Below are positions 1 to 18,497 of a DNA stretch of 33,210 bases, one piece after another; the first letter of the stretch is position 1; each line of letters opens with the position of its first letter. A model generated the notes under the pieces. That model was not told where the DNA came from. It was given only the letters and a program-made list of their open reading frames with translations, and made no database searches. The translations under genes were made by a program, and so were the position numbers. Source of the DNA: an uncultured Acetobacteraceae bacterium (GTDB lineage Bacteria; Pseudomonadota; Alphaproteobacteria; Acetobacterales; Acetobacteraceae); assembly GCA_937902425.1 (NCBI GenBank), contig CALFNB010000074.1, positions 1 to 33,210 of the forward strand. Direction: 5' to 3'.

Positions 1-1550
1 CCAGGTAGGTGAGCTTCGGTAGACGCTTGACTCCCGAGTCGGGGCACGATTCAAGCTCCCCATGTTGCCGCCACTGGATTCGGATTCGCATGTAGCAGCC
101 CCGCCGGAGCCAGATGGCCCGGTGTCCCCAGAATCAGTTATCGCGGCACTTCAGGAACAGAATGCCGCGCTGTCGGCGCTGGTAGCCGCGCTCCAGGCCC
201 GCGTCGCCGAACTGGAGCGCCAACTCGGCCTGAACAGCGGCAACAGCGGCAAGCCGCCATCCAGCGACGGACTGAAGAAGAAGCCCGTGCGTGTCAGCAG
301 CCTTCGCGGCCGGTCAGGCAAGAAGACCGGGGGACAGAAAGGTCATCCCGGCAAGACGTTGAGCCGCACCGAAACACCCGATGCGACCATCGATCATTTC
401 CCCGAGATCTGTTCGGGATGCGGTGGCACCCTGACCGGGGCGATGGCCACGGGCCATACCGCGCGGCAGGTGTTCGATCTCCCCGAACCTCAGCCCCTGA
501 TTGTCACGGAACACCGCGCCCATGCCTGCCTTTGCGGGAATTGCGGCGCCGAGACGCGCGCGGACTTCCCCGAAGCCGTGACCGCGCCAGTGCAATATGG
601 CGCGCGGCTCGCGGCGGTGGTGGTGTATCTGTTGCACTACCAGTTGCTGCCCGAGAAACGTCTGGCCGCGCTGATGGCCGATCTGTTCGGCGTGCACCTG
701 GTCACCGCGACGATCGCCGGCATGAGCCGGAATTGTGCCGCGCGGTTTCAGGGGTTCGCCGCCGCGGTGCGCGACCATGTGGCGGCGGCACCGGTCAAAC
801 ACATGGACGAAACCGGCTTCCGGATCGGCGGTAAGACGCAATGGCTGCACATCGCCTCGACGATCTGGTTAACGTTTTACCGCGTCTCCCCGAAACGGGG
901 CAGCCTGCTGGACAACGTCCTGGGAATCGTCGTTCACGACCACTGGAAGCCGTACTACACCTTGAAAGGCGTTTTGCACGCGTTATGCAATGCGCACCAC
1001 CTGCGCGAACTTCAGGCGTTGGTCGAGATCGAGAAAGAAGACTGGGCGCGCAAGATGCAACGTCTGTTGCGCCGGGCGTGTCATGCGACGAACCTCGCGC
1101 GTGATCAGGGTGTGACGTTGTCCTCTGAGTTCATCGCGCTGATCGAACGACGTTACGACACCATTCTCTCGGAAGGTTTCGCATTCCATGAGGCACAACC
1201 AGCTCTGATCTCCACCGCACGGAAACGCCGGGGCCGTGTGCCGCGCCGGACCGGCCACAATCTTCTGCTTCGTCTCCGCGTCCGTAAGGTGGATGTGTTG
1301 CGCTTCTTGTCCGACCCAACGGTGCCGTTCACCAACAATCTGGCGGAACGGGATGGGCGGATGATGAAATTGCGCCAGAAGATTTCCGGTGGCTTCAGGT
1401 CTGGTGACGGCGCGGAGGATTTCGCCGTGATCAGATCGCTGCTTTCGACAGCAAGAAAGCAGGGGTGGGATATCTTGCAGGCATTGGCCAGTCGGCCCGA
1501 TCGTCTGATCGCGGAACTCCAGATCGCCTGATCCAAGCTCGCCTACCTGG
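1..1550 (+). mobile_element. IS66-family insertion sequence, apparently complete with terminal inverted repeats
   Basis: CCAGGTAGGTGAGCTT at 1-16 and AAGCTCGCCTACCTGG at 1535-1550 are inverted repeats (15/16) flanking the transposase ORF; the left end coincides with the window edge so the outer boundary and TSD cannot be verified. Confidence 0.85.
62..1531 (+). CDS. IS66-family transposase (single-ORF type)
   Basis: 489 aa; N-terminal coiled coil plus NSGNSGKPPSSDG, CSGCGG/CGNCG zinc-binding motif, HMDETGFR, C-terminal NNLAERDGRMMKLRQKISGGFRS. Confidence 0.95.
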   Translation: MLPPLDSDSHVAAPPEPDGPVSPESVIAALQEQNAALSALVAALQARVAELERQLGLNSGNSGKPPSSDGLKKKPVRVSSLRGRSGKKTGGQKGHPGKTLSRTETPDATIDHFPEICSGCGGTLTGAMATGHTARQVFDLPEPQPLIVTEHRAHACLCGNCGAETRADFPEAVTAPVQYGARLAAVVVYLLHYQLLPEKRLAALMADLFGVHLVTATIAGMSRNCAARFQGFAAAVRDHVAAAPVKHMDETGFRIGGKTQWLHIASTIWLTFYRVSPKRGSLLDNVLGIVVHDHWKPYYTLKGVLHALCNAHHLRELQALVEIEKEDWARKMQRLLRRACHATNLARDQGVTLSSEFIALIERRYDTILSEGFAFHEAQPALISTARKRRGRVPRRTGHNLLLRLRVRKVDVLRFLSDPTVPFTNNLAERDGRMMKLRQKISGGFRSGDGAEDFAVIRSLLSTARKQGWDILQALASRPDRLIAELQIA

Positions 1551-1593: not shown

Positions 1594-1725
1594 ATGCCCA
1601 TTCTGATACCGCTCCGAGTGGCGAACCAACTTGAGGCGCTGCCCCGGGGTGACAGGATACGATTGATGGAACGACTTAAGACAATCGCGGCGGCGCCAGA
1701 TAGTCAGCATCCGAACGTGCTTCCG
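1594..1725 (+). pseudogene. Truncated RelE/ParE-like toxin N-terminus
   Basis: MPILIPLRVANQLEALPRGDRIRLMERLKTIAAAPDSQHPNVLP resembles the RelE/ParE N-terminal half; homology-like sequence stops exactly where the TIR element starts. Confidence 0.5.
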
Positions 1726-1866
1726 TGCCTATCCGGTTGTCACCCATACCCACTACATCTGGGGTGCTGCCAGTCTCCAGAACGTCCATGCTCGCCTCGC
1801 CAACGGCCAAACCACCTCGACCTCACATCCTACATTTAGTGGGTGTGGGTGATAACCGGATAGGCA
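1726..1866. mobile_element. MITE-like non-autonomous element, ~141 bp, ~30-bp TIRs
   Basis: TGCCTATCCGGTTGTCACCCATACCCACTA (1726-1755) vs reverse complement of the right end TGCCTATCCGGTTATCACCCACACCCACTA: 28/30 identical; no transposase inside. Confidence 0.75.
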
Positions 1867-2256
1867 CGCGTCCATCAATGCCATGACGACCGCGGTGCCG
1901 AAGCTGGTGGCCGGATTGACCCGCGGCTTGTTCGTGGCGGACCTGGAGCGGCACTGGAACTCGTTGCTTGATTATAATGACCCACAGGTGGTGTCGCGGT
2001 AACGGACTGCCTGACGAAAGCCGAGATGTGCGGCGTCCGCCGCTGCCTGTTTGGTGACCCGCGACGGTCGCGCCAAACCGGCCAACGGAGGCGACCAACG
2101 GAGACCAGCGGTGACAAGCGACTCGGCCGCTGGCACACTCGTGCGGTATGATCAGCCGCGCCGTCTGGATCGATCGCCAGCCGCAGCCAAGGCGATACCA
2201 CGATCGTGGGTGACATGTTCGCGAGTTGACCGACAAAACACGGAGGAGGGACGCAA

Positions 2257-3333
2257 ATGCCTATCAGCGGGGATCTGTTGAGCAGCGCCATGGCCGGCAT
2301 CGCATTCATCGGCTGCGCGATGACGAGCGTGACGCCGGCGCCAGGCGCACCACCACAGGCGCGGCGGCGTGAGGTCGTGGTCAACGGCAAACGGGTCAAG
2401 ACCATCGATGTGCACGCGCATTGCATTGTCCCGGCCGCCGCGGCGGTGATCAATCATCCGCTCGAGGCGCCGGGTTTGCTGATGCACGACACCAGCACGC
2501 GCATCGCGGCGATGGACGCGCAAGGCATCGACGTCGAGGCGCTCAGCATCAACCCATATTGGTATCGCGCCGATCGCGACGCCGCGGCCCACCTGATCAA
2601 GGTGCAGAATGAGACGTTGGTTGAGTTCCGCGCGGCCAGCCCCGACCGCTTCGTCGCCTTCGCGACGGCGGCGCTACAGCATCCCGATCTCGCCGCGGAG
2701 CAGGTCGAATACGCGGTCAAAAAGCTCGGCTTCCGCGGCGTCGGCGTGGCCGGCAGTGTCGCCGGCGAGGAACTGGCCAATCCGCGGTTTCATCCGTTCT
2801 GGGCCAAATGCGAGGAACTGGGCGTTCTGGTGTTCATGCACCCGCTCGGCACGCGCGAACTGGAGCCGAGCGGACGGCTCGCCGGCAGTGGGCTGTTGAC
2901 CAATACGATCGGGAACCCGCTGGAAACCACGATCGCGTTGTCGCACCTGATCTTCGAAGGCACGCTCGACCGCTTTCCTGGGCTGAAGATCTGCGCGGCG
3001 CATGGTGGCGGGTTTCTGCCGTCCTACGCCAACCGGTCGGACGCGGTAATCCGGTGCTTCCCGGACCGGGTCGGCCCTCTGCCAAAGAAGAATCCGACCG
3101 CGTATCTGAGAGACGGGCAACTGTTTTTCGACACGATCGTATTCACGCCAGAGGCATTGCGCCACCTGATCGCGGAATCGGGCCCAGGCCAGATCATGAT
3201 CGGGACAGACTATCCATTCCCGTGGACCAGCACCGAGGTTGACCTGGTGCTCAACACACCCGGGTTGAGTGATGACCAGCGCATCGCGATCCTGGGCGGG
3301 ACGGCGGCGCGGTTGCTGGGGATCGCGCCCTGA
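2257..3333 (+). CDS. Amidohydrolase family 2 (ACMSD-like metal-dependent hydrolase/decarboxylase)
   Basis: 358 aa; TIDVHAHC, HPLGT, LSHLIFEGTLDRFPGLKICAAHGGG, GTDYPFPW; RBS GGAGGAGGG upstream. Confidence 0.88.
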   Translation: MPISGDLLSSAMAGIAFIGCAMTSVTPAPGAPPQARRREVVVNGKRVKTIDVHAHCIVPAAAAVINHPLEAPGLLMHDTSTRIAAMDAQGIDVEALSINPYWYRADRDAAAHLIKVQNETLVEFRAASPDRFVAFATAALQHPDLAAEQVEYAVKKLGFRGVGVAGSVAGEELANPRFHPFWAKCEELGVLVFMHPLGTRELEPSGRLAGSGLLTNTIGNPLETTIALSHLIFEGTLDRFPGLKICAAHGGGFLPSYANRSDAVIRCFPDRVGPLPKKNPTAYLRDGQLFFDTIVFTPEALRHLIAESGPGQIMIGTDYPFPWTSTEVDLVLNTPGLSDDQRIAILGGTAARLLGIAP

Positions 3334-3574: not shown

Positions 3575-4525
3575 TTATCCCTTTCCGCCTTTCATTCTGT
3601 TACCGTAGTAATCGTACAGATGATCCAAGGACTTCCGACTCTCACGCCGCGATTCGACAAATGCACGGGCCAGAACATCCCAAAAAACGGGCATTCCAAA
3701 GACCCTTGTTGATTTTATGCGGTCGGCTATCCGTGCTGTAAGCTCCTCGGGTTTCGGGTCCACCACATAGATGTTCCCTTTGAATCCATTAAGGGTCTGG
3801 CAAAAACAATTCCACGAAACGTGATCATCGTGGCCAAAACTGTATCCGATCACCGCCACGAAATCAGGCAACTGCATGAACGCGGCCTCTACGTCGCGTT
3901 TCAATTGTTCCGTTTCCGTCTCAGGCGTGCAGAGAAGGAGTTCGTGGTGTGGCACAGGCATATCATACGCTCCTGCCAGTTTCAGATACTCCGCGATGTC
4001 GCTCGAACCGTACCAAGGTTCGACGCTACCGTGCGGAACTATAACTCGGTGGCGTGGGCGACACCAATTTGAGGCAAGACCGTCATGATTGTAATTCAAG
4101 ATCACCGCTGGATGAAAATGGCGGAACGCGCGGTAGTTGTCACTCTGAAGACCTACGAAAATGGGTCTCGCCAGCAGGTGTAGCATGTGCATTTCGGTAC
4201 GAAAGTTTGTCTGGCGCAGCAGCATATCCTCGAGGGGGAACTCCTCTGTACCTGGCCGAACGTCCCTGTTCCCGAATAGCGAGGCCATCGTCGCTTCGCG
4301 ATTGGTTCCAGCGGCCGCTGCGAAGCTCTTTCGAGTAAGTAGGGACTGCCGCGGAAGAAGCGCGGAAAAGCTGCCCCCTCGTATGTGGCCGAGTGCCGGC
4401 TCCAACAATAAGCCGTTGCTCATTGGAACCAGACCTGCTGATGAGCCAGCACCCAGCACGTACAATCCCTTGCGTGCCTGGAGATGTCCCAGGAACGACG
4501 TGAGACTCGGAACGCGTGCCGTCAT
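3575..4525 (-). CDS. SIR2-like (sirtuin-fold) NAD-binding protein, orphan
   Basis: GLYVLGAGSSAGL, VILNYNHDGLA, VPHGSV, VAVIGYSFGHDD, YVVDPKPEEL match the order of SIR2-fold motifs. Internal ATG at 4525 preferred over the ORF start at 4705. Confidence 0.75.
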   Translation of the reverse strand: MTARVPSLTSFLGHLQARKGLYVLGAGSSAGLVPMSNGLLLEPALGHIRGGSFSALLPRQSLLTRKSFAAAAGTNREATMASLFGNRDVRPGTEEFPLEDMLLRQTNFRTEMHMLHLLARPIFVGLQSDNYRAFRHFHPAVILNYNHDGLASNWCRPRHRVIVPHGSVEPWYGSSDIAEYLKLAGAYDMPVPHHELLLCTPETETEQLKRDVEAAFMQLPDFVAVIGYSFGHDDHVSWNCFCQTLNGFKGNIYVVDPKPEELTARIADRIKSTRVFGMPVFWDVLARAFVESRRESRKSLDHLYDYYGNRMKGGKG

Positions 4526-4722
4526 CGGAATACGACTGCCTTTCTCGCCAGACGGATGTGATCTAGTGAGGTCGCGCTGATGTTCAAGGACCTGGCGGCG
4601 GCTCTTCACGGGCTCCGCTGCGCGGTAAACCCGCAGGCCACCTTTAATATTCCTTCGATCTGGTCTCTGACCACGAGACTGGACAGTTAGCCCCTGGGGC
4701 GACACCGCGAGCCCGCCATGGG

Positions 4723-4752
4723 TCGCACGAATTTCAGTCGCACGAATTTCAG
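4723..4752. repeat. Perfect 15-bp tandem direct repeat (TCGCACGAATTTCAG x2)
   Basis: 4723-4737 and 4738-4752 identical; ~50 bp upstream of the ParD-like start. Confidence 0.9.
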
Positions 4753-4800
4753 GTGCGTCCTCCTGGCGGTTGAGGTATCCTCGCCAACACTGGAGCGTCC

Positions 4801-5085
4801 ATGGGCACCATCCAAATTCCGGACCACCTGAGGCAACTCATTGACAGCCAGATCGCCGAAGGGCGCGCGGCATCAGAGGCTGACTATGTGGTGGCGGCCT
4901 TGCGCGCCTATGCCGACCACGTCGAGGCTGAAAAAGAGATCGTCGCGATGGTGGACAGGGCCGATACCGACCTGGCGGCCGGGCGCTTTGTGACGGTGAC
5001 CGGGGCGAAGGACGCCGAAGCGCTCCATACGAGCGCGATGGCCCGGCTTCACGCGCGGGTGTCCGAAAACGCCCGGGAGCATTGA
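4801..5085 (+). CDS. parD: ParD-like ribbon-helix-helix type II antitoxin
   Basis: 94 aa; IQIPDHLRQLIDSQIAEGRAASEADYVVAALRAYADH typical of ParD N-terminus; followed directly by ParE-like coding. Confidence 0.75.
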   Translation: MGTIQIPDHLRQLIDSQIAEGRAASEADYVVAALRAYADHVEAEKEIVAMVDRADTDLAAGRFVTVTGAKDAEALHTSAMARLHARVSENAREH

Positions 5086-5450
5086 CCTACCGCCTGCTGG
5101 CGGGCGCCGAGGGCGATATCGACCGCATCTTGCTCAGGAGTGCGGAGGAATGGGGGCGTCCCGGCGGCGGAGCGTTACCACAGGCTGATGCTGGCCGTTT
5201 TCGCCATGATCGGCGCAAGGCCTGACACACCGGGTTCGCAGGCGGTCGAAACAGTCGCCGGTGTGCGTTTCTACCCTCTCTCTCGCTTGGCCGTCGCCTC
5301 GTTGTCCCTGAACAGCGCGTTGGCAAGCCGAGGCACATCGCCGTTTATCGGGTGGCCAATGACGGAGCGGTCGAAATCGTCGGACTGACCCACGACAGGA
5401 TGCTGCTGGCCCCGGCCGCGCGCCGGATGCATCGGGCAGCGGGCCCCTGA
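5082..5450 (+). pseudogene. parE: ParE-like toxin with two compensating 1-nt frameshifts
   Basis: Frame 0: TYRLLAGAEGDIDRILLRSAEEWGRP; frame +1: AAERYHRLMLAVFAMIGARPDTPGSQAVETVAGVRFYPLSR; frame 0 again: LGRRLVVPEQRVGKPRHIAVYRVANDGAVEIVGLTHDRMLLAPAARRMHRAAGP*. Extra C in the 5160-5162 CCC run and a missing nt near 5286; premature TGA at 5223-5225. Confidence 0.8.
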
Positions 5451-5541
5451 CAGAGTCTGGGCGATGTGTTCCAAATCCTCCGTATCACCAACGATTTGAT
5501 GCCATTCGCGGCCACTCGGTCGGCCAACCAGGGATAGTTCG

Positions 5542-6456
5542 ATGCAACGCATCCTCAACCTCCGACCTGAAATCATTGAGCATCGCATCCCAACCCCTGA
5601 CAGCAGGCCCTATATCCTCGCCGGAGGCCCCGACGGCTGTGTCCGGTTTTGCGGATCCGGACCCGGCCAGATCGGCCGCCTTGCTCCGGAAAACGGGACC
5701 ATCATCGAGTATCCGCTCCCCGACCCGACGGGCACTCCGGTCGGCATCGCAGCGGGATCGGATGGAACGATGTGGTTCACCCAATCGACCGCGCACAAGG
5801 TTGGCCGGATCACCATGGATGGCGCGATATCCGAGTTCGACCTGCCGACTCCCCGGTCCGGCCCGAACGGCATCGCCCTTGGCCCGGATGGCAACATCTG
5901 GCCGGCGCAGCACGCGATCGGCAAAGTGGCCCGGATCACGCCGGCCGGCGAGGTGACGGAATTCGATGGCTTCGCGCCAGGCGTCCATCCGCTCGTGCCG
6001 ACCGCCACCGCAACGCACGTCTGGTTCAGCGACTCGATCGCCAGCCGGGTCGCGCGGGTCGACATGAATGGCCGGGTGACGGAGTTCGCGACACCGCGGC
6101 CAAACAGCGGACCACGCGCCATCGTGCCCGGACCGGACGGATGCATCTGGTTCGTGCTCGCCGCGGGCAACGCGATCGGCCGCGTCACTCCCGGCGGCGA
6201 AATGCGGGAATTCCCGCTGCCAACACCGAATGCCAGCCCGCGCGGCATTGTCGTTGCCCGCGGCGACGAGATCTGGTTCACGCGGAACCTGATCAACCGC
6301 ATTGGGCGCTTGTCGCTCGATGGCGAGATGCTGGCGGACTACCAATTGCCGACGCCCAGTTCGGGTCCGCGCGCGATGGTGGCCATGCGGGACGGGCGGT
6401 TGTTCGTCTCACAACACGATGCGGGATGCGTCGGAGAGATCAGGCCGCACGCCTGA
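5542..6456 (+). CDS. Virginiamycin B lyase (Vgb)-like beta-propeller protein
   Basis: 304 aa of ~42-aa repeats of the type GPDGxxWF...IGRIT.xGxxxEFxLPTPxSGP. Confidence 0.85.
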   Translation: MQRILNLRPEIIEHRIPTPDSRPYILAGGPDGCVRFCGSGPGQIGRLAPENGTIIEYPLPDPTGTPVGIAAGSDGTMWFTQSTAHKVGRITMDGAISEFDLPTPRSGPNGIALGPDGNIWPAQHAIGKVARITPAGEVTEFDGFAPGVHPLVPTATATHVWFSDSIASRVARVDMNGRVTEFATPRPNSGPRAIVPGPDGCIWFVLAAGNAIGRVTPGGEMREFPLPTPNASPRGIVVARGDEIWFTRNLINRIGRLSLDGEMLADYQLPTPSSGPRAMVAMRDGRLFVSQHDAGCVGEIRPHA

Positions 6457-6727
6457 CACAATCAAAATGTTATCGGAACGACATCAAACCATAAGCCAGG
6501 GCCAGGAGACTTCGGCGGAGCCTCAAGCCCGGTGCGAACGCCTGAAACGACGAATCCGGCGAATTGCTGACCGCGCCGCCGCGAGTTAAGCAACTCTCCT
6601 GGGCCGCGTGCTCTGACACGAACCGCGACCGCCCCCCGGCTTCCATGGCCCGGTTATCGCGGCTACAGTGCAGTTCATTACAATAAAACATTCATCCAAC
6701 GTCGCCCCGACCTCGGATCGGCGAGCA

Positions 6728-6755
6728 GGAAAGCCGTGTCTGGAAAGCCGTGTCT
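6728..6755. repeat. Perfect 14-bp tandem repeat (GGAAAGCCGTGTCT x2)
   Basis: 6728-6741 and 6742-6755. Confidence 0.9.
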
Positions 6756-6783
6756 TGACGATTTCCGTGGCCAGCACGATACT
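6755..6783 (+). promoter_or_regulatory. Candidate sigma70-type promoter TTGACG-N17-GATACT
   Basis: -35 TTGACG 6755-6760, 17-nt spacer, -10 GATACT 6778-6783; points to the 2,032-aa gene. Confidence 0.35.
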
Positions 6784-6861
6784 CGGAGAACCGACCAGGT
6801 GTGGCGGATGTTCGAGTAACAACCTGGGGTGGTCCAAGATCGGTCAAACGAACCTAAGTCG

Positions 6862-6893
6862 AACCAGCTCGTGCAACCCTTGCACGAGCGGTT
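6862..6893. promoter_or_regulatory. Strong hairpin in the leader of the giant repeat gene
   Basis: AACC(A)GCTCGTGCAA-CCC-TTGCACGAGCGGTT: 10-bp perfect stem, extended to 14 bp with one bulged A. Confidence 0.6.
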
Positions 6894-7063
6894 TGAGTAT
6901 GATCGTGCCTGACGGGTGGTCGCCCGATCGTTCCGCCGGGCCGGAGCCTCATTTCGCCATCACGGCCTGTCGTGCCTTTCGGCCAAACAACAAGAGTACT
7001 GAATTTTCACGTGCTGGTCGTGCCGTGGCCGGGCTGCTCGGCGAACTGAAGGGGTAAACGAAG

Positions 7064-10000
7064 ATGGCTTCTTATTCGATCGGGTCCGGAGTGACCAGCA
7101 GCGGCATCACGCTGAACAGCGGCGAATTCCTGAGCGTTTCGTCCGGCGGGACCGTCGTCGCCACGACGGCCGGCAGTGGCAGCTACGCGTTTGTGTCCGC
7201 CGGCGGCACGGCCCGAGGTACCGTTTTGAACGGCGGCTCGGAGTACGATCTGGCTGGCGCCACCGTCAGTGGCACAGTCGTGAACAGCGGTGGCGCCGAG
7301 TTCGCGGAGGGCACCGCCAGCGGCACGGTCGTGAACGGTGGTGGCGTCCAGGCAGTGCTCGGCACGGCGCTCAATACCGTCATCAGCGGCGGCGGCTTCC
7401 AAATCGTGTCCCATGGCGTGGCGAGCGGTACGTTGGTGCTTAGCGGGAGCGTCCAGACCGTCCATGGCAGCGCCGCCGCTACCGTCGTCAGCGGCGGCGG
7501 CACCGAGGTCGTGTCCGTCGGCGGCGTGGCCAGTGGCACCGTCGTGAGCAGTGGTGCGTTCCTGGTCGTCTCCAGCGGCGGCATGGCCAGCGGCGCGACC
7601 GTGGACGCCGGCGGGTTCCTGGTGGTCCTGTCGGGCGGCCTGGCGAGCGGCACGATCAACGCCGGCGGTGAGGTCGTATCGACCGGGGTGATCGTGCTGT
7701 CGTCCAACCTCGTGGTGTTCGCCGGAAGCGGCACGGTGACCGGTGCTTCCGCTGGTTCCGGCGAATCCGAGATGGTCCTGCCGGGCGGCACCGCGATCAG
7801 CTCGCACATCGGCTCGGGGGGCTTTGAATACATCTCCTCCGGCGGCGTCGCCGAGTTCTCCGTCGTCAGCAAGTTCGGCATCGACTACGTGCAGTCCGGC
7901 GGTGTGGGCAGCGCGACCCAGGTGCTGTCCGGCGGCGCCGAGGATGTGCTGCGTGGCGGCGTCGCGAGTGGAACCATGGTGTCCGCGGGCGGCTATCAGG
8001 ACGTCCTCTCCGGCGGCGTGGCGAGCAGCAGCGTCGTCAGTAGCGGCGGCTTCCAGGTTGTCTCCTCCGACGGTTCGGCGATCGCGACGACCGTCAGCGC
8101 CGGCGGTGACGAGGTCATCCTGCCGGGCGGCCTGGCCAGCGCCACGAACCAGTTGCCGGGGGGTGTGGTGGTGTCCGCCGGCGTGGTCGTCCTGTCGGGC
8201 GGCGTGGTGATTTCGGCTGGTGCCGGGACGGTCTCCGGCACTCTCGCGAACGTCGGCGAGGTGGAGTGGATCCTTCCGGGCGGCACCGCCATCGGCTCGC
8301 TCATCTCCGGTTTCGAACTCGTGTTTTCCGGCGGCACCGCCAGCGGCAGCCTGCTGAATGGATTCGGCAGCGAGACGGTGCGGTCCGGCGGCGTGGCCGA
8401 CTTCACCGTCATCAGCGGCCGCGGCACGCAGACTGTCAGCAGTGGCGCGGCGGCGAACTTCGCCGAGGTAAACAGCGGCGGAACGCAGTTCATCGCCGGT
8501 GGCGGCGTGGCGAGCGGCACCGTCATCGGCGCGGGCGGCACCGCGGAAGTCTTCATCAGTCGCAAGACCACCAGCACGGTCGTCGGCACCGGAGGCACCG
8601 AAACGCTGTTTGGCACCGCGCTCGGCACCGTCCTGAGCGGTGGCACCGAACGCGTTCAGTTCGGTGGTGTGGCGAGCGGTGTCATCGTCAGTAGCGGCGG
8701 CGCCCAGAATATCAGCTTGAGCGGTCTGGCCACCGGCACCGTGGTTACCGCCGGCGGGCTGGAGGTCATCCTCGCCGGCGGCACGGCCAGTGGGACGACC
8801 CTGGCGAGCGGCGGTGCCGCCATCGTCTCCAGCGGCGGCCTGGCCATCGGCACCACGGTCAGCGGCGGAGCGTTGCTGGCGGTTCTGCCTGGCGGAACGG
8901 CGAGTGGAACGCAGTTGTCAGGCGGGCAGGTCATATCGGCCGGCGTTTTCGTGGTGCCGGTCAGCGGCGTGGTCCAGGCCGGCAGCGGAACGGTCTCGGG
9001 CCTGATCGTCGGCTCGGGGTTCCAGGAGTACATCCTCTCCGGCGGCACGGCGGTCGGATCGCTGATCGGCGGCACCGAACTGGTTTATTCCGGCGGCGTC
9101 GCCAGCGGCTCGATCATCAGCGGTGGCGCCCAGAACGTGCAGTTCGGCGGCGTGGCGGTCAGCGCCGTGCTGGACGCGGGCGGCATCCAGACCTTGGCGC
9201 GCGGTGTCGCCAGCTTCACCACCGTGAACGCCGGAGGCGCCGAGCGGGTATCCACCGGCGGCATCGCCAGTGCCACGGTCCTGAACGGCGGCACCGAGAC
9301 AGTGACATTCAGCGGTCTCGCCAGCGGAACGACGGTGCGCGGACCGGGCTTCGAGGTGATCTCCTACGGCGGCGTCGCGAGCGGCAGCGTGATCTCCGGC
9401 GGCGGCCTGCAATCGGTGAATTATGGCGGCACCGCCATCGGCACCACCGTGAGCAGCGGCGGCGATGAAATCCTGGCGCAGGGCACCGCCAGCGGTGCGG
9501 TGATCCTGAGCGGCGGTCTGCTCCAGGCACAGTTCGGCGCCGCGGCGAACAACACCACGGTCGGGTCCGGCGGCTACGAAGTCATTTCCGCCTTCAGCAT
9601 CGCCAGCGGGACAACCGTGAGCAGCGGGGGCACACTCATCCTGCTGCCCGGAGCAACGGCAAGCAGCACGAACCCGCTCGCGGGGAGCCTGGTGGTCTCC
9701 GCCGGCGTCGTCGTATTGGCTTCCGGCAGCGTGATCACAGCGGTCAACGGAACGCTCTCGGGCGTCCAGGTCAGCGCCGGCCAGACCGAGTTCGTGCTGC
9801 CCGGGGGCACCGCCGTCAGTTCGCTGATCGTCGGCACCGCGAACATCGGCTCCGGCGGCACGGACAGCGGCTCGATCGTGGTGCGGCCGGGAAACGAGAA
9901 CGTCAATACCGGCGGCACCGCGAACTCCGTCGTCGTGAGCAGCGGCGGCTTTCTGAACATCGAAGGCGGCACCGCCAACGGCACCGTGGTGAGCGCCGGT

Positions 10001-13000
10001 GGGGTCGAAGAACTCTACGGTGGCGTGGCGAGCGGTACGGTCGTCAGCAACGGCGGCAGTGAAAACGTGGCCGGCGGTGTCGCGAGCGGCACCATCGTCG
10101 GGCGCGGCGGATCCCAGGGCGTGTCCTACGGCTCGGCGGTCGGAGCGCTGGTGAGCGGCGGCGGCGTGGAGGTTGTTTCCTACGGTGGCGTCGCTGACGA
10201 CACGACGGTGGAAAGCGGTGGCGCGCAGTTCGTCTCCGCGCTTGGCGCGGTCAGCGGTACCGTGGTCAGCGGTGGCGGCTTCGAGGTCGTGTTCAACGGC
10301 GGCATCGCCAGCGGCACGACGGTGAGCAGCGGCGGCACGCTGGTCATTCTTCCGGGCGCGCAGGTGAGCGGAACGGTTCCGCTCGCCGGTAGCCACATCA
10401 TCTCCGCCAACGTGCTCGTGCTTTCATCCAACGCGGTGGTGTCAGCGGTCAGCGGCACCGTGTCGGGCGATGTGATCGCCCAGGGAGAGACGGAGTACGT
10501 ATTGGCGCGTGGCATCGCGGTCAGCTCGCTGATCCGCAATGTCGGTACCGAAGAGGTCATGTCCGGCGGCGTGGCCAATTTCACGGTCGTGAGCAAAGGC
10601 GGCCGGCAGGACGTGACCAACGGCGGCGCGGCCCGCTTCGCGGTGGTGAGTGCCGGCGGCTATCAGGTGTTGTCAGCCGGCGGCACCGCGACCGGCACGA
10701 CCGCGGCGGCCGGCGGCACTGAGAACGTCAGCTACAGCGGCGTCGCGATCGGGACCAAAGTCGCCAACAACGGCACAGTGGCGATCAACAACCTTGGCGT
10801 CGCCAACCTCACGGTGGTGAGCAGCGGGGGCGCGGAAATGGTCAGCGCCGGCGGCATCGCGAGCGCGACGACCATTCTGTCCGGCGGCTTCGAACTCATC
10901 TCGGCCGGCGGCACCGCGCTCGCGACGACGGTCCAGAACGGCGGGTTCCTGGTGCTGTTCCAGGGCGCCAGTGCTTCCGGCACCATCGTGCAGCCCGGCG
11001 GCTCGGTCCTCAGCACCGGCGTCGTCCTGGTCGGCCAGATCACCTCCGCCTGGGCGACCACCGCTAATAACGTGACGGCCGGTGACCTCTCGACGCTTGA
11101 CGTGTTGCAAGGCGGAACCGCGATCAGCGCCTCCATCGGGTTGTTCGCGAGCGCGACCATCTTTTCCGGAGGTTCCGCCGCCGAAACAACGCTCAACGCG
11201 CTGGCCAACATGACGGTGATGTCCGGTGGATCGGCCACCGACGTCACGTTCGTCAGCAACTTCGGCGCACTCAATGTCGCGGCCGGGGCGGCGTTGCAGG
11301 GTTTGATCGGCCTGGATGCCGATCTGGTAACGATCAACATCAACGGCAGCGTGATGCCGACCGCTGTCATCAGCGGTTTCAATGCCTCCGACGACATCAG
11401 CCTGGTAAACATCCCCTACGTCGCGGGCGCTACCGCCACGTACAACGCCGGCGCGGTGACCGTCTCCGAAGGCGGCCAGAGTTACGCTTTGAATTTCGCC
11501 CCGTCGCCGGCTTATTCCGCCGGGACGTTCTTTGTGTCCTCCGGCTTTGGCGGTACCGATATCGGCTTCCTGGGTTCGGGCAGTTTCATCGTCTCGGGCG
11601 GGCAGACGAGCCAGGGTCTGGCGATCGCGGGAAATGAGTTCCTCGGAGTGAACTCCGGCGGGACGGTCAGTGCGTCTACCCTGAGTGGCACTCAGCCGTT
11701 CCTGACCTATCAGCCTTCAATCCTCAACGGCGGCACGCTGCATTTCGTTACCGGTTCGGGCGCTGTCGCGTTGGAGCGGAACTCCGGCACCGACATCGGC
11801 AACCAGGTTCAGTTTGGCGGCAATCTGCTCAACGTCGGGCAAGTCCAGAACGCGACCGTCACCAGCGGCGGTTTCCTGTTTACCCTGGAAGGCACCGTGA
11901 ACAACGCCGTGGTGTCGGCGAACGGGATCGAACTGGTCGCGTTCTTCGGGGCGGCGACCGGGACCGTGCTCGACGGTGGCCTTGAAGGTCTGGCCGCCTA
12001 CGGCACCGCCAGCGGGACAGTAGTGAACAGCGGCGGCGAGCAGGTCGTCGGCGGCCAGGTCGACCTCGGCGGCGGCGATATCCTGCCGCTGCCATACGGC
12101 ACCGCCGACTCCACGGTGGTCAATTCCGGTGGGCTGCAGTTCGTCAACGCCCTGAGCGATGCCGAGTCGACACGCATCAATGCCGGTGGCGAAATGATCG
12201 TCAACTCCGCCGGCACGGCGGGCAACCCGGTCATTGGTGGCGGCGGCACACTGGTTCTGAACAGTTTCGCGGTGGTCAGCGGCGGCATCGTGCTCGGGGG
12301 CGCCGGGGCGGTGCTGGACATCGGCGGAACGTCGATGCCGACCGCGACCATCTCGGGTTTCACCGACGGAAACTTCATCGATTTGATGAACGTCGCCGCG
12401 GCGGGCGCGTCGGCGACGATCGACACCTCGTCCGACGTGCTGACGATCTCAGCGGGCGGCTCCACTTATCCGCTGGCGCTCGCCGGAGGCTATGCCGGCG
12501 CGATATTCAACGTCACCAGCGCTGGACCCGGTGCCAGTATCGTCACGGTGTCCGGCGCGGGCATCCCGTGCTTCACCGCGGGTACGCGGATCGCCACGGA
12601 GTCCGGCGAGGTCGCGGTCGAGGCGCTGCGAGAGGGCGACCGCGTGGTGCTACGCGACGGACGGATCGCACCGATCGTCTGGGTCGGCCATCGTCGCGTG
12701 GACTGCGCCCACCACCCGCGCGCGGATCAGGTCTGGCCGGTCCGCGTTGCCGCCGGCGCCTTCGGCTCAGGACTGCCGCACAGCGACCTGAGACTGTCGC
12801 CGGACGACGCGGTTTATGTCGATGGTGTTTTGATTCCGGTGAAACGTCTGGTCAACGGAACCTCAATTGCCGTCGAGCCGGTGGATGTCGTCGTTTATTA
12901 CCATATCGAACTGGCCGCACACGAGATCATGTTGGCGCAGGCGCTGCCGGTGGAGTCCTATCTGGATACGGGGGATCGGCGTGCCTTCGACAATGGCGGC

Positions 13001-13162
13001 ACGACGGTGATGCTGCATCCGGATTTCTCAACGCGGATGTGGGAGGCGATGGGCTGCGCGCCGCTCGTCGTGACCGGACCCAAACTCGCAGCCGCGCGCC
13101 GACGCGTGAACGCGTTGGCGAACGACCTGCCGCGGCAGACCGCTCGACGCGTGAGGCGTTGA
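7064..13162 (+). CDS. Giant AIDA-repeat (autotransporter-adhesin-like beta-helix) protein with C-terminal Hint domain
   Basis: 2,032 aa; dozens of ~20-aa repeats (SGGxASGTxVxSGGxxxVxxGG); Hint domain from PCFTAGTRIATESGEVAVEALREGDRVVLRDG (Cys codon 12569-12571) to about 13020; SD-like GAAGGGG upstream. Confidence 0.92.
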   Translation: MASYSIGSGVTSSGITLNSGEFLSVSSGGTVVATTAGSGSYAFVSAGGTARGTVLNGGSEYDLAGATVSGTVVNSGGAEFAEGTASGTVVNGGGVQAVLGTALNTVISGGGFQIVSHGVASGTLVLSGSVQTVHGSAAATVVSGGGTEVVSVGGVASGTVVSSGAFLVVSSGGMASGATVDAGGFLVVLSGGLASGTINAGGEVVSTGVIVLSSNLVVFAGSGTVTGASAGSGESEMVLPGGTAISSHIGSGGFEYISSGGVAEFSVVSKFGIDYVQSGGVGSATQVLSGGAEDVLRGGVASGTMVSAGGYQDVLSGGVASSSVVSSGGFQVVSSDGSAIATTVSAGGDEVILPGGLASATNQLPGGVVVSAGVVVLSGGVVISAGAGTVSGTLANVGEVEWILPGGTAIGSLISGFELVFSGGTASGSLLNGFGSETVRSGGVADFTVISGRGTQTVSSGAAANFAEVNSGGTQFIAGGGVASGTVIGAGGTAEVFISRKTTSTVVGTGGTETLFGTALGTVLSGGTERVQFGGVASGVIVSSGGAQNISLSGLATGTVVTAGGLEVILAGGTASGTTLASGGAAIVSSGGLAIGTTVSGGALLAVLPGGTASGTQLSGGQVISAGVFVVPVSGVVQAGSGTVSGLIVGSGFQEYILSGGTAVGSLIGGTELVYSGGVASGSIISGGAQNVQFGGVAVSAVLDAGGIQTLARGVASFTTVNAGGAERVSTGGIASATVLNGGTETVTFSGLASGTTVRGPGFEVISYGGVASGSVISGGGLQSVNYGGTAIGTTVSSGGDEILAQGTASGAVILSGGLLQAQFGAAANNTTVGSGGYEVISAFSIASGTTVSSGGTLILLPGATASSTNPLAGSLVVSAGVVVLASGSVITAVNGTLSGVQVSAGQTEFVLPGGTAVSSLIVGTANIGSGGTDSGSIVVRPGNENVNTGGTANSVVVSSGGFLNIEGGTANGTVVSAGGVEELYGGVASGTVVSNGGSENVAGGVASGTIVGRGGSQGVSYGSAVGALVSGGGVEVVSYGGVADDTTVESGGAQFVSALGAVSGTVVSGGGFEVVFNGGIASGTTVSSGGTLVILPGAQVSGTVPLAGSHIISANVLVLSSNAVVSAVSGTVSGDVIAQGETEYVLARGIAVSSLIRNVGTEEVMSGGVANFTVVSKGGRQDVTNGGAARFAVVSAGGYQVLSAGGTATGTTAAAGGTENVSYSGVAIGTKVANNGTVAINNLGVANLTVVSSGGAEMVSAGGIASATTILSGGFELISAGGTALATTVQNGGFLVLFQGASASGTIVQPGGSVLSTGVVLVGQITSAWATTANNVTAGDLSTLDVLQGGTAISASIGLFASATIFSGGSAAETTLNALANMTVMSGGSATDVTFVSNFGALNVAAGAALQGLIGLDADLVTININGSVMPTAVISGFNASDDISLVNIPYVAGATATYNAGAVTVSEGGQSYALNFAPSPAYSAGTFFVSSGFGGTDIGFLGSGSFIVSGGQTSQGLAIAGNEFLGVNSGGTVSASTLSGTQPFLTYQPSILNGGTLHFVTGSGAVALERNSGTDIGNQVQFGGNLLNVGQVQNATVTSGGFLFTLEGTVNNAVVSANGIELVAFFGAATGTVLDGGLEGLAAYGTASGTVVNSGGEQVVGGQVDLGGGDILPLPYGTADSTVVNSGGLQFVNALSDAESTRINAGGEMIVNSAGTAGNPVIGGGGTLVLNSFAVVSGGIVLGGAGAVLDIGGTSMPTATISGFTDGNFIDLMNVAAAGASATIDTSSDVLTISAGGSTYPLALAGGYAGAIFNVTSAGPGASIVTVSGAGIPCFTAGTRIATESGEVAVEALREGDRVVLRDGRIAPIVWVGHRRVDCAHHPRADQVWPVRVAAGAFGSGLPHSDLRLSPDDAVYVDGVLIPVKRLVNGTSIAVEPVDVVVYYHIELAAHEIMLAQALPVESYLDTGDRRAFDNGGTTVMLHPDFSTRMWEAMGCAPLVVTGPKLAAARRRVNALANDLPRQTARRVRR

Positions 13163-13217
13163 TCCGTCGGCGCGCGCGCTTATGTCGTGAATTTCGACCG
13201 CGGCGGATCGCGCGAGA

Positions 13218-14060
13218 TCAGGCTTTCGACAGCGTCCAGTTATAGACGCGCTGTAGCGTGTCACCCATGAGCGCGGCCCGGTCGCTGTCGGACAGGCGAT
13301 CGGTGACGCGAAAAGCGTCAACACCCTGTTTGAATGTCAACACTCCGACCGCCCGGGTCCAATCGGTGCCCCACATGCAGCGATCGAAGCCAAACGCGTC
13401 AAAAATCCGAAACAGCGGATCCCAGATGTCTTTGTAGGGGAAGGGTTCGTGCGACAGCGTGCAGGCGCCCGAGATCTTCACCACGATGTTGTCGTGGGCC
13501 GCCAGCGCCAGCAGCTTTGGAAGCTCGGCCCATGGCTGCGCGGGGGCTGGCGGTTTTTGCGGCTGGCGCAGCCCGAGATGGTCGATAACCAGTTTGGTGT
13601 TGCGGTTTCGCGCCGCGAGTTGACCCGCCTGCTCAAGGCGTCCCGTGCACATGAGGTTGACTGGCAACGAATGCCGCGCCGCGGCGGCCAGGACTCGGTT
13701 CAGGCCTGGGTCGGCGGGGTCGGTCGAGACGCCTTCTCGCATCATGATCCGGATACCGACCGTCCCCTTCGTGGCAGCCCAGTCGGCGATCGTATCGGCC
13801 ACGCCGGGGTCGTTCGCGTCGACCGGTTTGATCAACCGGAATCTGTTGGGATGCGCATTGTAAACGGCGATGGCGTAGCTGGCGTCATAGCGGTACATCG
13901 TGAACGGCGAGACCAGCAGGGCGCCGTCGACACCGACGGCGTCCATGGCGGCCACCATGTCGTCGCCGGTGACCTCTGGCGGGCCATGGAGAACGGCAGC
14001 CCATGGGCGGCCCGGGTGATCGCGTTCGTAGGCGTGAACCTGGACGTCGATTGTTGGCAT
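13218..14060 (-). CDS. Amidohydrolase family 2
   Basis: 280 aa; TIDVQVHAYERDHPGRPWA, KLVIDHLGL, NIVVKISG, FGFDRCMWGTDWTRA. Confidence 0.87.
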   Translation of the reverse strand: MPTIDVQVHAYERDHPGRPWAAVLHGPPEVTGDDMVAAMDAVGVDGALLVSPFTMYRYDASYAIAVYNAHPNRFRLIKPVDANDPGVADTIADWAATKGTVGIRIMMREGVSTDPADPGLNRVLAAAARHSLPVNLMCTGRLEQAGQLAARNRNTKLVIDHLGLRQPQKPPAPAQPWAELPKLLALAAHDNIVVKISGACTLSHEPFPYKDIWDPLFRIFDAFGFDRCMWGTDWTRAVGVLTFKQGVDAFRVTDRLSDSDRAALMGDTLQRVYNWTLSKA

Positions 14061-14175
14061 GGCTTCCGATCCTCCACCCGATCGATTCTGATCAGGAACG
14101 ATGTGTCCCGCCTGGTTGGTGCGGGTTCGAGACGGTACGCAGCATGGTCCTCGTATTCAAGTGTAGCACCGGCGA

Positions 14176-14763
14176 TCACAGACCGGCTGGTGCCTCCTGT
14201 CCGGCCACCCGTTCATAGGCTGCCCTGGTCGCATCGGAAACCTTATGGGTGTCTTCTCTGAGATTGCGTGGCGTGATCGCGATAAACGCGATTTCCCAAT
14301 CTTTTGGGGCCGGCTTTCCCACCTTCGGCAAGAACGCATGCGGCGCGTTTGGTGAGTTGTGGAAATGATCGCCGCCGGTCACTGGTGTGAGAATGGGTTG
14401 TGCATTCTGCCCTTCGGAATACGCATCCGCTTCACCAACGACGTACATGGGAAACTGATCGGTTCGGCTCCTCGGATGTCTGTGCAACTCGACTTGTTTC
14501 AGGAAAACACAAGCAACCGATCGTCCGTGACGATTTCGGCCATTTCGCCAGAAACCGTCTCCCGCTAAATCCATGGGCGTTGGGAGTTGGTGTTCCCTCC
14601 CGCCGAGCACTGCTCGCAGGGTTTCTCTTGGATTGAATTCATTTTCCCGCCCGGAGAAAGCGGCTCGCGCCGTGCTGAAGTCTTGGTATACAGCTTTCAC
14701 CCACGCCAGCTCGTCATCAGCCAGTTCATGATCCAATAACGAGATATCTGATACGTCAGCCAC
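14176..14763 (-). CDS. Hypothetical cupin-like protein
   Basis: HFHNSPNAPHAFLP metal-site-like motif; GTG start at 14763 preferred because AAAGGAG lies at correct spacing (atcaaAGGAGaagtcaGTG). Confidence 0.6.
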   Translation of the reverse strand: MADVSDISLLDHELADDELAWVKAVYQDFSTARAAFSGRENEFNPRETLRAVLGGREHQLPTPMDLAGDGFWRNGRNRHGRSVACVFLKQVELHRHPRSRTDQFPMYVVGEADAYSEGQNAQPILTPVTGGDHFHNSPNAPHAFLPKVGKPAPKDWEIAFIAITPRNLREDTHKVSDATRAAYERVAGQEAPAGL

Positions 14764-14835
14764 TGACTTCTCCTTTGATTTTCTTACCGATCGTGGACAG
14801 GAATCACCTACCACTGACCGGAATACCCGGCAAGA

Positions 14836-15726
14836 CTACGAAGCCTGACGCCGCGTCTGCGTCCAGCCGACATAAAGCCCGGAGGCAATGACGATCGCGG
14901 CGCCCAGCCAGGTCAGCGCGTCCGGCAAATCGCTGAACAGCAGATAGCCAACCAGCACGGAGCCGAGCATCTGCACGTATTGAAACGGCGTTACGATATT
15001 CGCCGGAGCAAATCCCAGCGACAGCGCGACGAAGTAGTGACTGATCGCGCCCAGTACGCCAAGACTGCAGAACAGCACGACATGACCCAGGCTCGACGGC
15101 GTTCGCCACACGAAGGGCAGCACCAGCAGCATGCCAAAGGCTCCGACGATGGAACTGTAGATCGCCGATGTTTCCGGTGCCTCGGTATCGGCGATCTCTC
15201 GCGTGAAGATCTGATAAAATCCATTCATCAGCGCACTGAAGATGACGAACAGCGCGGCCCAATGGAACACCTCGGACCCTGGGCGGATGATGATGAGCAC
15301 ACCCAGGAATCCGATCAGCACGGCGACCACTCTCCCCTGGCTGGTTCGTTCCCCCAGCATCGGCCACGCCAGCGCGGCGACCATCAGCGGTCCGGTCATG
15401 TTGATCGAGGCAGCCTTGCCGATCGGGATGAAGGTGATCGCGAAGAAGTAGCTCAGATTCGAAATGAACAGGCAGGAGGAGCGTAACATATGCCGGCCCA
15501 AACGCCGCGTGCGCAGCATGCGCAATCCGAACCGCGGCACGAACGTTGCCAGCATGAACAGGACATGCCCGAAGGCGCGAGCCCAGGAGACTTGCAGGGA
15601 ACTGTAGTGCTCGCCGAGCAACTTGGCGAAACCGTTCATCAATGGCGAGGTGAGGCCGGACAGACAGATGAACAGCACGCCCAGTAGCAGGTTGCGGTCC
15701 CATTGGCGCCGCGCCGGGTAGGACAT
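14836..15726 (-). CDS. EamA/DMT-superfamily transporter
   Basis: 296 aa polytopic; NGFAKLLGEHYSSLQVSWARAFG, paired 5-TM-like repeats, typical EamA pattern. Confidence 0.88.
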   Translation of the reverse strand: MSYPARRQWDRNLLLGVLFICLSGLTSPLMNGFAKLLGEHYSSLQVSWARAFGHVLFMLATFVPRFGLRMLRTRRLGRHMLRSSCLFISNLSYFFAITFIPIGKAASINMTGPLMVAALAWPMLGERTSQGRVVAVLIGFLGVLIIIRPGSEVFHWAALFVIFSALMNGFYQIFTREIADTEAPETSAIYSSIVGAFGMLLVLPFVWRTPSSLGHVVLFCSLGVLGAISHYFVALSLGFAPANIVTPFQYVQMLGSVLVGYLLFSDLPDALTWLGAAIVIASGLYVGWTQTRRQAS

Positions 15727-15790
15727 CGTCGTTTATTTCTCCCCCCGAGGCATGTTCCACCGCGTCAGAAGGTCGCGCGGAAGTCTTCAA

Positions 15791-16972
15791 TTACACAAAC
15801 TGTACCACGTTCTCGCAACCGATGATGTGGCGGCCCACCATTTCGATCAGCGGCAGCATCGCCTGCATATGCTGACTGGCACTCATTGCATCACGGAAGC
15901 GGCGTTCGAACGGCGCGGAATCCATGATCGCCGCGGTGCCCGCGCCGCGGTAGCACGCGATGGAGACATCGGTCGCCTCGTTCATGCCATAGGTCGTGGC
16001 GAGCCGGAGGCGCATCCGCGTGTCCACATCCAGATCGCCTTTCACCGCGGCGTCATAAGTTTGGCACACCGCCTCATGCAGGAAGGCGCGGGCGGCGGAC
16101 AGTTTCGCCTCCAGCAAGCCGATTTCCCGTTGTATCGCGTGGTTGTCGGCCATGGCGCTGATTGACGCCCGGCTGCGCCGGCTACGCGCGAGCGTGGTGT
16201 AGGTCTCCAGCATACGCCGCGCCAGGCCGAGCGTCACGCCGCAGAAACCCATCGCATAGAGCGGGGTGGAGTGGATGGCATAGAGCGGCCCGCTCTCCCG
16301 TCGTTCCTCGGGTGCTTCACGATGCGGGGCGTGCTCGTCCGCCACGAACAGGTCGTTGACCGAGTAAGTATCGCTGCCAGTGCCACGCAGACCGAGGACG
16401 TGCCAGTCGTCGACGATCGTGGCTTTCTCGCGAAGGAACAGGAAGCTGCGCACGTCTGGAGTGCCGTAGCGGATGTGTGGCGTGCCATCGGGGTTCTGCA
16501 CGGCGCCGTGGGCGCCGATCCAGGTGGTGTGACGGCTGCCGCTCGCGAAGCTCCAGGTGCCGGTCAGGCGGTAGCCGCCGTCCACGCGGATGGCCTTGCT
16601 GTTGCTGGTAATGGCGCCCCAGGCGAGCCCGGCGCGCCGACCATCGAAGACGGAGACGGCGGCGTTGTGCGGCATGGCGGCGGCGGACGTCGCGGAGGAG
16701 ACGTTGGACTGGTTGACGAACCAGCCGGTGCTGGCGTCGGCCCAGGCGACGGCCTCGGTTGTCTTGCAGAACTCCAGTGGGTGGATTTCCTGACCTCCCA
16801 GGGACCTGGGCAGCAGCAGGCGCAGCAGGTCCTGATCGACGAGGGCGTCAACGACCTCTGGGGTCAGTTCGCGGCGGCGGTCGATCTCGGGGCCATGGGC
16901 GTCCAGCAGTGGATGCAGTGCGTGGGCACGGTCGGGGGCGCTGGTAAGTGGTGCTGACTGGACGGTGTCCAT
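15791..16972 (-). CDS. Acyl-CoA dehydrogenase-fold flavoprotein (possible flavin-dependent monooxygenase)
   Basis: LLRLLLPRSLGGQEIHPLEF, WFVNQSN, YRLTGTWSFASGSRHTTW, LRGTGSDTYSVNDLFV; start MDTVQS with AAGGAAG RBS. Confidence 0.87.
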   Translation of the reverse strand: MDTVQSAPLTSAPDRAHALHPLLDAHGPEIDRRRELTPEVVDALVDQDLLRLLLPRSLGGQEIHPLEFCKTTEAVAWADASTGWFVNQSNVSSATSAAAMPHNAAVSVFDGRRAGLAWGAITSNSKAIRVDGGYRLTGTWSFASGSRHTTWIGAHGAVQNPDGTPHIRYGTPDVRSFLFLREKATIVDDWHVLGLRGTGSDTYSVNDLFVADEHAPHREAPEERRESGPLYAIHSTPLYAMGFCGVTLGLARRMLETYTTLARSRRSRASISAMADNHAIQREIGLLEAKLSAARAFLHEAVCQTYDAAVKGDLDVDTRMRLRLATTYGMNEATDVSIACYRGAGTAAIMDSAPFERRFRDAMSASQHMQAMLPLIEMVGRHIIGCENVVQFV

Positions 16973-17096
16973 GAAGGCTTCCTTGGTGGCCGGGTCCGGT
17001 GAGCAATAGGGGCGGCGTTGGAACGGCGTCAATCTGCTGGCCGGTGCGGTCATGCGGGTGGGCTTTACCGGTCCGTGGCGGCGCGGTATTCGTTAT

Positions 17097-17115
17097 GGAA
17101 CGATAATATTATTCC
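17097..17115. promoter_or_regulatory. AT-rich imperfect dyad upstream of the acyl-CoA dehydrogenase-like gene
   Basis: GGAACGATAATATTATTCC with core palindrome ATAATATTAT (17103-17112). Confidence 0.35.
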
Positions 17116-17255
17116 GCTTGAATATCATGCGAAGCGCCGTTATCCACGCATGACCTGGACCCGCGTCCGATCTTCATCAATACGATGGTCCGGTCGAGTC
17201 GGGCCATGACGTGGAGGGCAAAAGTCAGACTTAATGCGAAGTGATATGCGACCTC

Positions 17256-18350: not shown

Positions 18351-18497
18351 TCTTGTGCGGCTCCTGTTGGCGCCGCGTGGATATGGGAAGCCCGCCGCCG
18401 TTATCCAGATGTTAGATGTACTAATGTACGATATCGGTTTTCAACCGGATAAGGGCTAATGCCAGCATTTTCCACTAACGCGCCGGCCGCTGGCCGC

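Follow-up and report, generated by a model that had tools for sequence, protein, structure and literature searches.

The 316-residue SIR2-like protein encoded in the 33,210-nt stretch of Acetobacteraceae DNA analyzed here (the window) is probably a compact, stand-alone anti-phage effector, of a rare, unnamed branch of SIR2 proteins, that degrades NAD+ and acts by abortive infection. The analysis itself establishes an intact open reading frame (ORF), the presence and conservation of SIR2 motifs, a predicted core that is SIR2-like, the absence of deacetylase-type zinc Cys pairs, signs of mobility, and the embedding of one relative in an Hma operon.

Results

The ORF and its motifs. An earlier note on this DNA, made from the sequence alone, had described an ORF with SIR2-like motifs on the minus strand (Table 1). 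The ORF is exactly as described, running intact from an ATG start to a stop codon, and all of the motifs cited are present: GAGSS (residues 25 to 29), NYNHD (144 to 148), HG (165 to 166), GYSFG (227 to 231), and VDP (255 to 257). The other five frames contain 7 to 13 stops each across the same interval, and codon usage there favors the annotated frame over all five. N146 and H165 are the predicted catalytic Asn and His. The DSR2 catalytic mutant N133A/H171A alters an Asn/His pair (PMC10973363), which by motif would be equivalent to N146/H165. The only Cys residues are at positions 155, 199, 240, and 242; they do not make two CxxC pairs, and the four-Cys zinc module of canonical sirtuin deacetylases was not found among them. 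When the protein was shuffled 200,000 times, the ordered motif set GxGxS, NxD, HG, and GYS at SIR2-like spacings appeared in 2 cases, a result that is indicative only, since the regular expression was chosen after the sequence had been viewed. Invariance of the motif positions in three relatives from unrelated bacteria, described below, is the better test.

Table 1. Coordinates of the SIR2-like gene, its motif codons, and neighboring features in the window
Feature	Coordinates	Strand	Remarks
SIR2-fold protein gene (P0001), 316 aa	3575..4525	-	Predicted NAD-binding, probably NAD-hydrolyzing; member of a small unnamed family
LGAGSS codons (residues 24-29)	4439..4456	-	SIR2 GAGxS motif after strand 1; residue 28 alone varies in the four members
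N144-Y-N146-H-D148 codons	4082..4096	-	Counterpart of SIR2 T-x-N-x-D; in register with SIR2_2 TTN[YF]D
H165-G-S codons	4025..4033	-	Counterpart of SIR2 HG motif; in register with SIR2_2 HG
GYSFGHDD codons (residues 227-234)	3824..3847	-	SIR2_2-type GY[SG]F motif, then invariant DD
IS66 transposase	62-1531		Pfam E = 1.9e-43
Palindromic MITE-like element or strong hairpin, 145 bp	1724-1868		43-nt arms, 86% complementary; just after the IS66 region
Amidohydrolase gene	2257..3333	+	Other flank of the SIR2-like gene; neighbor, not part of the system
ParD-like antitoxin gene of a decayed toxin-antitoxin pair	4801..5085	+	Pfam E = 4.4e-4; 21.1 bits vs. cutoff of 21; neighbor, not part of the system
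Vgb-family protein	5542-6456		
AIDA-repeat/Hint protein, 2,032 aa	7064-13162		13 AIDA stalk repeats and a C-terminal Hint_2 domain

Searches of profile libraries and genomes. The description of the protein as "undescribed" was borne out at the level of the libraries. Searches of Pfam-A, PADLOC, PHROGs, and PDB sequences with the window protein returned no match at an E value of 10, and NCBIfam returned a single irrelevant match (E = 0.3). The Pfam SIR2_2 model (PF13289) likewise gave no match at an E value of 10 for any of the four family members now recognized, and none of the four was matched by the PADLOC HEC and PDC models. When genomes were searched with the SIR2_2 model, it missed the window protein, while the same model gave 13 SIR2_2 matches in congeneric genomes. 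A PDB profile match to a pseudomurein endoisopeptidase (E = 0.015) was rejected because it spans a short repeat-like stretch.

Similarity searches with the single protein found no relative in plasmids, phages, viral contigs, or about 1,450 genomes. Weak matches in four whole-genome samples of 300 to 399 genomes each (E = 0.006 to 1) covered short segments, many of them interrupted by stops, and exact-peptide scans of the genome and viral collections were also negative. Degenerate search patterns were then derived from artificial alignments (A1 to A5) in which the suspected motifs alone were kept; these alignments served only that purpose and are never used as evidence, and one of them (A2) gave a pattern that was too degenerate. 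The pattern [LIV][YF][VIL]LGAG[SA]SA, scanned across 84,980 species genomes, matched 129 stretches, and tblastn comparison with the natural window protein showed 3 of them to encode relatives. These are from Bradyrhizobium sp. BR 10289 (L068; 33% identity, E = 4e-39), the Spirochaetes metagenome-assembled genome (MAG) contig CALMRC010000020.1 (L069; 26%, E = 1e-17), and a Proteobacteria MAG (L070; 26%, E = 1e-13), the E values being relative to the candidate stretches. Identity to the window protein is thus 26 to 33% by tblastn, and it is 27 to 37% in the four-member alignment described below. Degenerate patterns scanned on viral contigs yielded no relatives, and none were found in viral contigs, phages, plasmids, or Escherichia coli. 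Profile searches of 32 congeners and about 420 further genomes (from Bradyrhizobium and from the phylum and class to which the other two relatives belong) gave no full-length match; a weak 43-residue match (E = 2e-4) was obtained at one further locus (L075). The family thus appears to be very sparsely distributed across phyla, with a count (3 relatives in 84,980 species) that rests on one pattern.

Conservation within the family. When the four natural family members are aligned (A6), the invariant positions include L24, G25, A26, G27, S29, A30, N144, N146, D148, A151, H165, G227, Y228, F230, D233, D234, S237, P257, P279, and W282; these comprise the quartet of SIR2 motifs together with residues specific to the family. 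The search pattern fixed the GAG motif alone, so that the other motifs were found to be conserved independently of it. G166 is kept in three of the four members, and L070 carries HL instead of HG; the window protein is without the short insert between GY[ST]F and DD that its relatives carry. Two features are peculiar to the family: T-T-N-[YF]-D is replaced by N-[YF]-N-x-D, and GY[ST]F is followed by an invariant DDxxS. The family signature can be written LGAG[AS]SA ... N[YF]NxD[GN][LI]A ... GY[ST]F ... DDxxS.

Predicted fold. The window protein almost certainly has the Rossmann-type SIR2 fold that the earlier note had assigned to it. A single-sequence AlphaFold2 model reached a pLDDT of only 31, and modeling on the four-row alignment gave a mean pLDDT of 57 and a pTM of 0.57, with core blocks at 70 to 85. 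This moderate-confidence model has a SIR2-like core, with strands at residues 20 to 24, 141 to 144, 222 to 226, 251 to 255, and 275 to 278, and is unreliable at residues 31 to 122 and 166 to 203 (pLDDT of <50). In a Foldseek comparison with the PDB, ranks 1 to 16 were all SIR2 proteins, the best being SIR2-HerA (E = 1e-4), Sir2Tm (E = 2.7e-4), and human FAM118B (E = 3.3e-4); SIRT2 and DSR2 (E = 3.4e-3) were also matched. TM scores were 0.36 to 0.39, reflecting how much of the model is unreliable, and the result therefore supports the fold class and not a detailed placement. PDB entry 8yhx carries the title "trimeric HerA"; we take its matching chains to be the SIR2 subunit, given that the clearly labeled SIR2-HerA entries 8uae and 8sub match too. 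A library of viral structures gave weak SIR2 matches only (E = 0.015). When the family is aligned jointly with seven SIR2_2 proteins, GAGxS, NxD, HG, and GY[SG]F all fall in register. SIR2_2 proteins were matched weakly in a local HMM-HMM comparison (probability of 55%, mostly from the GAG motif); global comparison gave 89%, with the middle unreliable.

The activity could differ from that of other SIR2 proteins, given the HL of L070 at the HG position and the use of N-[YF]-N by the family where others carry T-[TQ]-N. An NAD-using enzyme of SIR2 fold might catalyze ADP-ribosylation of a target in the manner of SirTM, base exchange, or formation of an ADP-ribose-type signal instead of bulk NAD+ hydrolysis. 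The altered motif and the variable residue 166 would suit such a protein, even with the Asn and His kept, and macrodomain-linked SirTM is among the weaker structural matches (8rsn; E = 0.1). The best structural matches, however, are SIR2-HerA and FAM118B, which are NAD-processing immune sirtuins, and no macrodomain or target-carrier gene was recognized beside the window gene or beside its L068 and L069 relatives. We consider a reaction other than NAD+ hydrolysis unlikely, if still a reading of some weight.

Origin and neighborhood of the gene. The SIR2-like gene has a GC content of 0.543 and a GC3 of 0.587, and nearly all other window genes checked have a GC3 of about 0.80 (~0.74 to 0.85). The low GC3 relative to its neighbors points to horizontal acquisition. 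Every one of the four family members is lower in GC than its surroundings (0.543 versus 0.64 for the window gene, 0.391 versus 0.625 for L069, and 0.587 versus 0.647 and 0.44 versus 0.501 for the other two), and a full-length relative of the window protein was absent from all 32 congeners searched. These data support the view that the gene was recently acquired and sits in a variable spot. Another ORF with atypical GC3 (0.535 versus about 0.80), at 14176-14814 on the minus strand, is possibly foreign as well.

The earlier note had placed the gene in an "accessory zone" with neighbors typical of a defense island. The first part holds for the gene itself, given its GC3 and its absence from congeners, but a defense island in the surroundings is not supported: a PADLOC scan of ten window ORFs found no defense protein and gave two matches, to metabolic enzyme models only. 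The neighbors are ordinary, namely catabolic genes, IS66, and a decayed ParDE pair. Those named in the note were indeed found, the IS66 element being real, the supposed MITE corresponding to a 145-bp palindrome, the ParD match being marginal, and the ParE-like sequence being frameshifted. IS66 lies 2.0 kb and the palindrome 1.7 kb from the SIR2-like gene, with the intact amidohydrolase gene between; orthologs of the latter (83 to 92%) occur in congeners without the SIR2 gene, where they lie in different contexts. Elsewhere in the window, the AIDA-repeat/Hint protein pairs adhesin repeats with an autoprocessing-type domain, and two closely similar tandem genes at 29427-31025 and 31143-32777 are GMC oxidoreductase-like by eye.

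A distance of 275 bp separates the SIR2-like start codon from the start of the upstream ParD-like gene, a proximity that could suggest a toxin paired with this antitoxin. However, ParD is divergently oriented, and behind it comes a frameshifted remnant that we identified by eye as ParE-like, the two spanning 4801-5390; because the antitoxin thus already has a decayed partner, we rejected the SIR2-like protein as its toxin. Invariance of the active-site residues across the family argues in turn against a catalytically dead SIR2 relic, and we regard either of these explanations as extremely improbable. Two perfect tandem 15-mers (GTCGCACGAATTTCA) lie at 4722-4751, between the ParD-like gene and the SIR2 gene.

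Genomic context of the relatives. The relative in the Spirochaetes contig lies within an Hma operon (5098-19219) that follows a gene of the phage integrase family. The order is integrase, HmaA, SoFic, SIR2-like protein, HmaB, GmrSD_N, and HmaC, with PADLOC scores of 1,640 bits for HmaA, 339 for SoFic, 1,539 for HmaB, and 1,131 for HmaC; the three embedded genes are thus those for SoFic, the SIR2-like protein, and a GmrSD_N (DUF262) protein. The SIR2-like gene begins 1 bp after the SoFic gene, shares 4 bp with hmaB, and has a GC content of 0.39 in surroundings of 0.62, features that give it the look of an exchangeable passenger. The authors of PADLOC described Hma as a candidate defense system of three genes (PMC8565338), and several Hma-embedded genes show antiviral activity (PMC12988326).

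In Bradyrhizobium (L068, positions 4679-11517), a tniA-tniB-tniQ-like module is directly followed by the SIR2-like gene, and a gene for a retropepsin-like aspartyl protease begins 17 bp after it. The two genes are possibly a transposon cargo pair, the position after tniABQ resembling that of cargo in a Tn5053/Tn7-type element. The third relative lies on a 3.5-kb contig that is uninformative for context. With one relative in an Hma operon, one after tniABQ, and one on a short contig, the numbers are too few for statistics. Examination of homolog neighborhoods, which the earlier note had proposed, thus placed one of three relatives in a recognized defense operon, the others being in the tniABQ module and on the 3.5-kb contig; the defense link that the note had drawn finds support in the relative in the complete Hma operon and none in the window gene's own neighbors.

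SIR2 is paired with HerA or with a short Argonaute in known systems. By analogy, the protein could be an effector subunit of a family that normally acts with a neighboring sensor, the window copy then being an orphan, either inactive or driven by an unlinked partner. That the window protein has no separate sensor domain would fit, as would the placement of the L069 copy amid SoFic and Hma genes and of the L068 copy 17 bp from the retropepsin-like gene. No conserved partner was seen among the family members (n is small, and one contig is short), and the window ORF is without decay, both of which count against a lost partner; we judge this explanation rather improbable. Far less probable still is a housekeeping or stress protein of SIR2 fold, active in NAD or nucleotide metabolism and carried by chance on mobile DNA. 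The catabolic genes, IS66, and decayed toxin-antitoxin pair around the window gene, with no defense genes, would agree with such a role, but the very sparse distribution across phyla, the low GC in every member, and the embedding of a relative in an Hma operon do not.

Discussion

We infer an NADase reaction, an anti-phage role, and a trigger for the window protein as follows. The protein would bind NAD+ in the SIR2 cleft and hydrolyze it by means of N146 and H165, and the loss of NAD+ would arrest the infected cell (abortive infection). Until infection, the protein would be held off. Control would have to come from the helical insert (residues ~31 to 122), from oligomerization, or from another protein, because no separate sensor domain is recognizable; in the last case, the regulator may be an unlinked or a phage protein. 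Oligomerization serves as a control in FAM118 and several bacterial immune sirtuins (PMC12700824).

The best structural match, the SIR2 subunit of SIR2-HerA (PDB 8yhx, 8uae, and 8sub), shares the SIR2 core, but its chains are 383 to 428 residues long, compared with 316 for the window protein, and there is no significant sequence match; no HerA was found among the ten window ORFs scanned with PADLOC or among the genes scanned around L069 and L068. DSR1/DSR2 and ThsA share the SIR2 core with its Asn/His, but the DSR proteins have about 1,000 residues and a long C-terminal sensor that the window protein does not have. Pfam and PADLOC searches gave no match to the ThsA SLOG domain in the window protein, and a TIR gene, as for the ThsB partner of ThsA, was absent among the scanned window genes, as was, in both the protein and those genes, any match to the Argonaute/APAZ partner or fusion of short-pAgo SPARSA systems. 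In the Pfam SIR2_2 family (PF13289), the motifs are in register, but the window family differs by N-[YF]-N-x-D and by its own invariant DD..S, P, and W. The PADLOC sets of Hma-embedded candidates (HEC) and phage-defense candidates (PDC) are also relevant, in that L069 is likewise embedded in Hma. To our knowledge, bacterial SIR2 defense proteins need either a large fused sensor (DSR, ThsA, and Avs5) or a partner (HerA or Argonaute).

FAM118B/SIRal (PDB 9r0p), a vertebrate antiphage-like sirtuin, is also compact, of SIR2_2 type, and without a fused sensor, although it has no significant sequence match to the window protein. FAM118B forms filaments and needs its paralog for marked activity (PMC12700824). 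A wider proposal, which we hold only tentatively, is that the family represents a new branch of compact immune sirtuins across phyla, true single-gene NADases that would sense phage through the SIR2 domain itself and not through a sensor that is fused or supplied by a partner.

A 316-residue SIR2 protein without a separate sensor would be a small system in which to study how a lone SIR2 domain is restrained and triggered, and the window protein would give the compact immune sirtuins FAM118B/SIRal a counterpart in bacteria. Some SIR2 proteins escape profile libraries, and the family signature motif offers a route to more of them.
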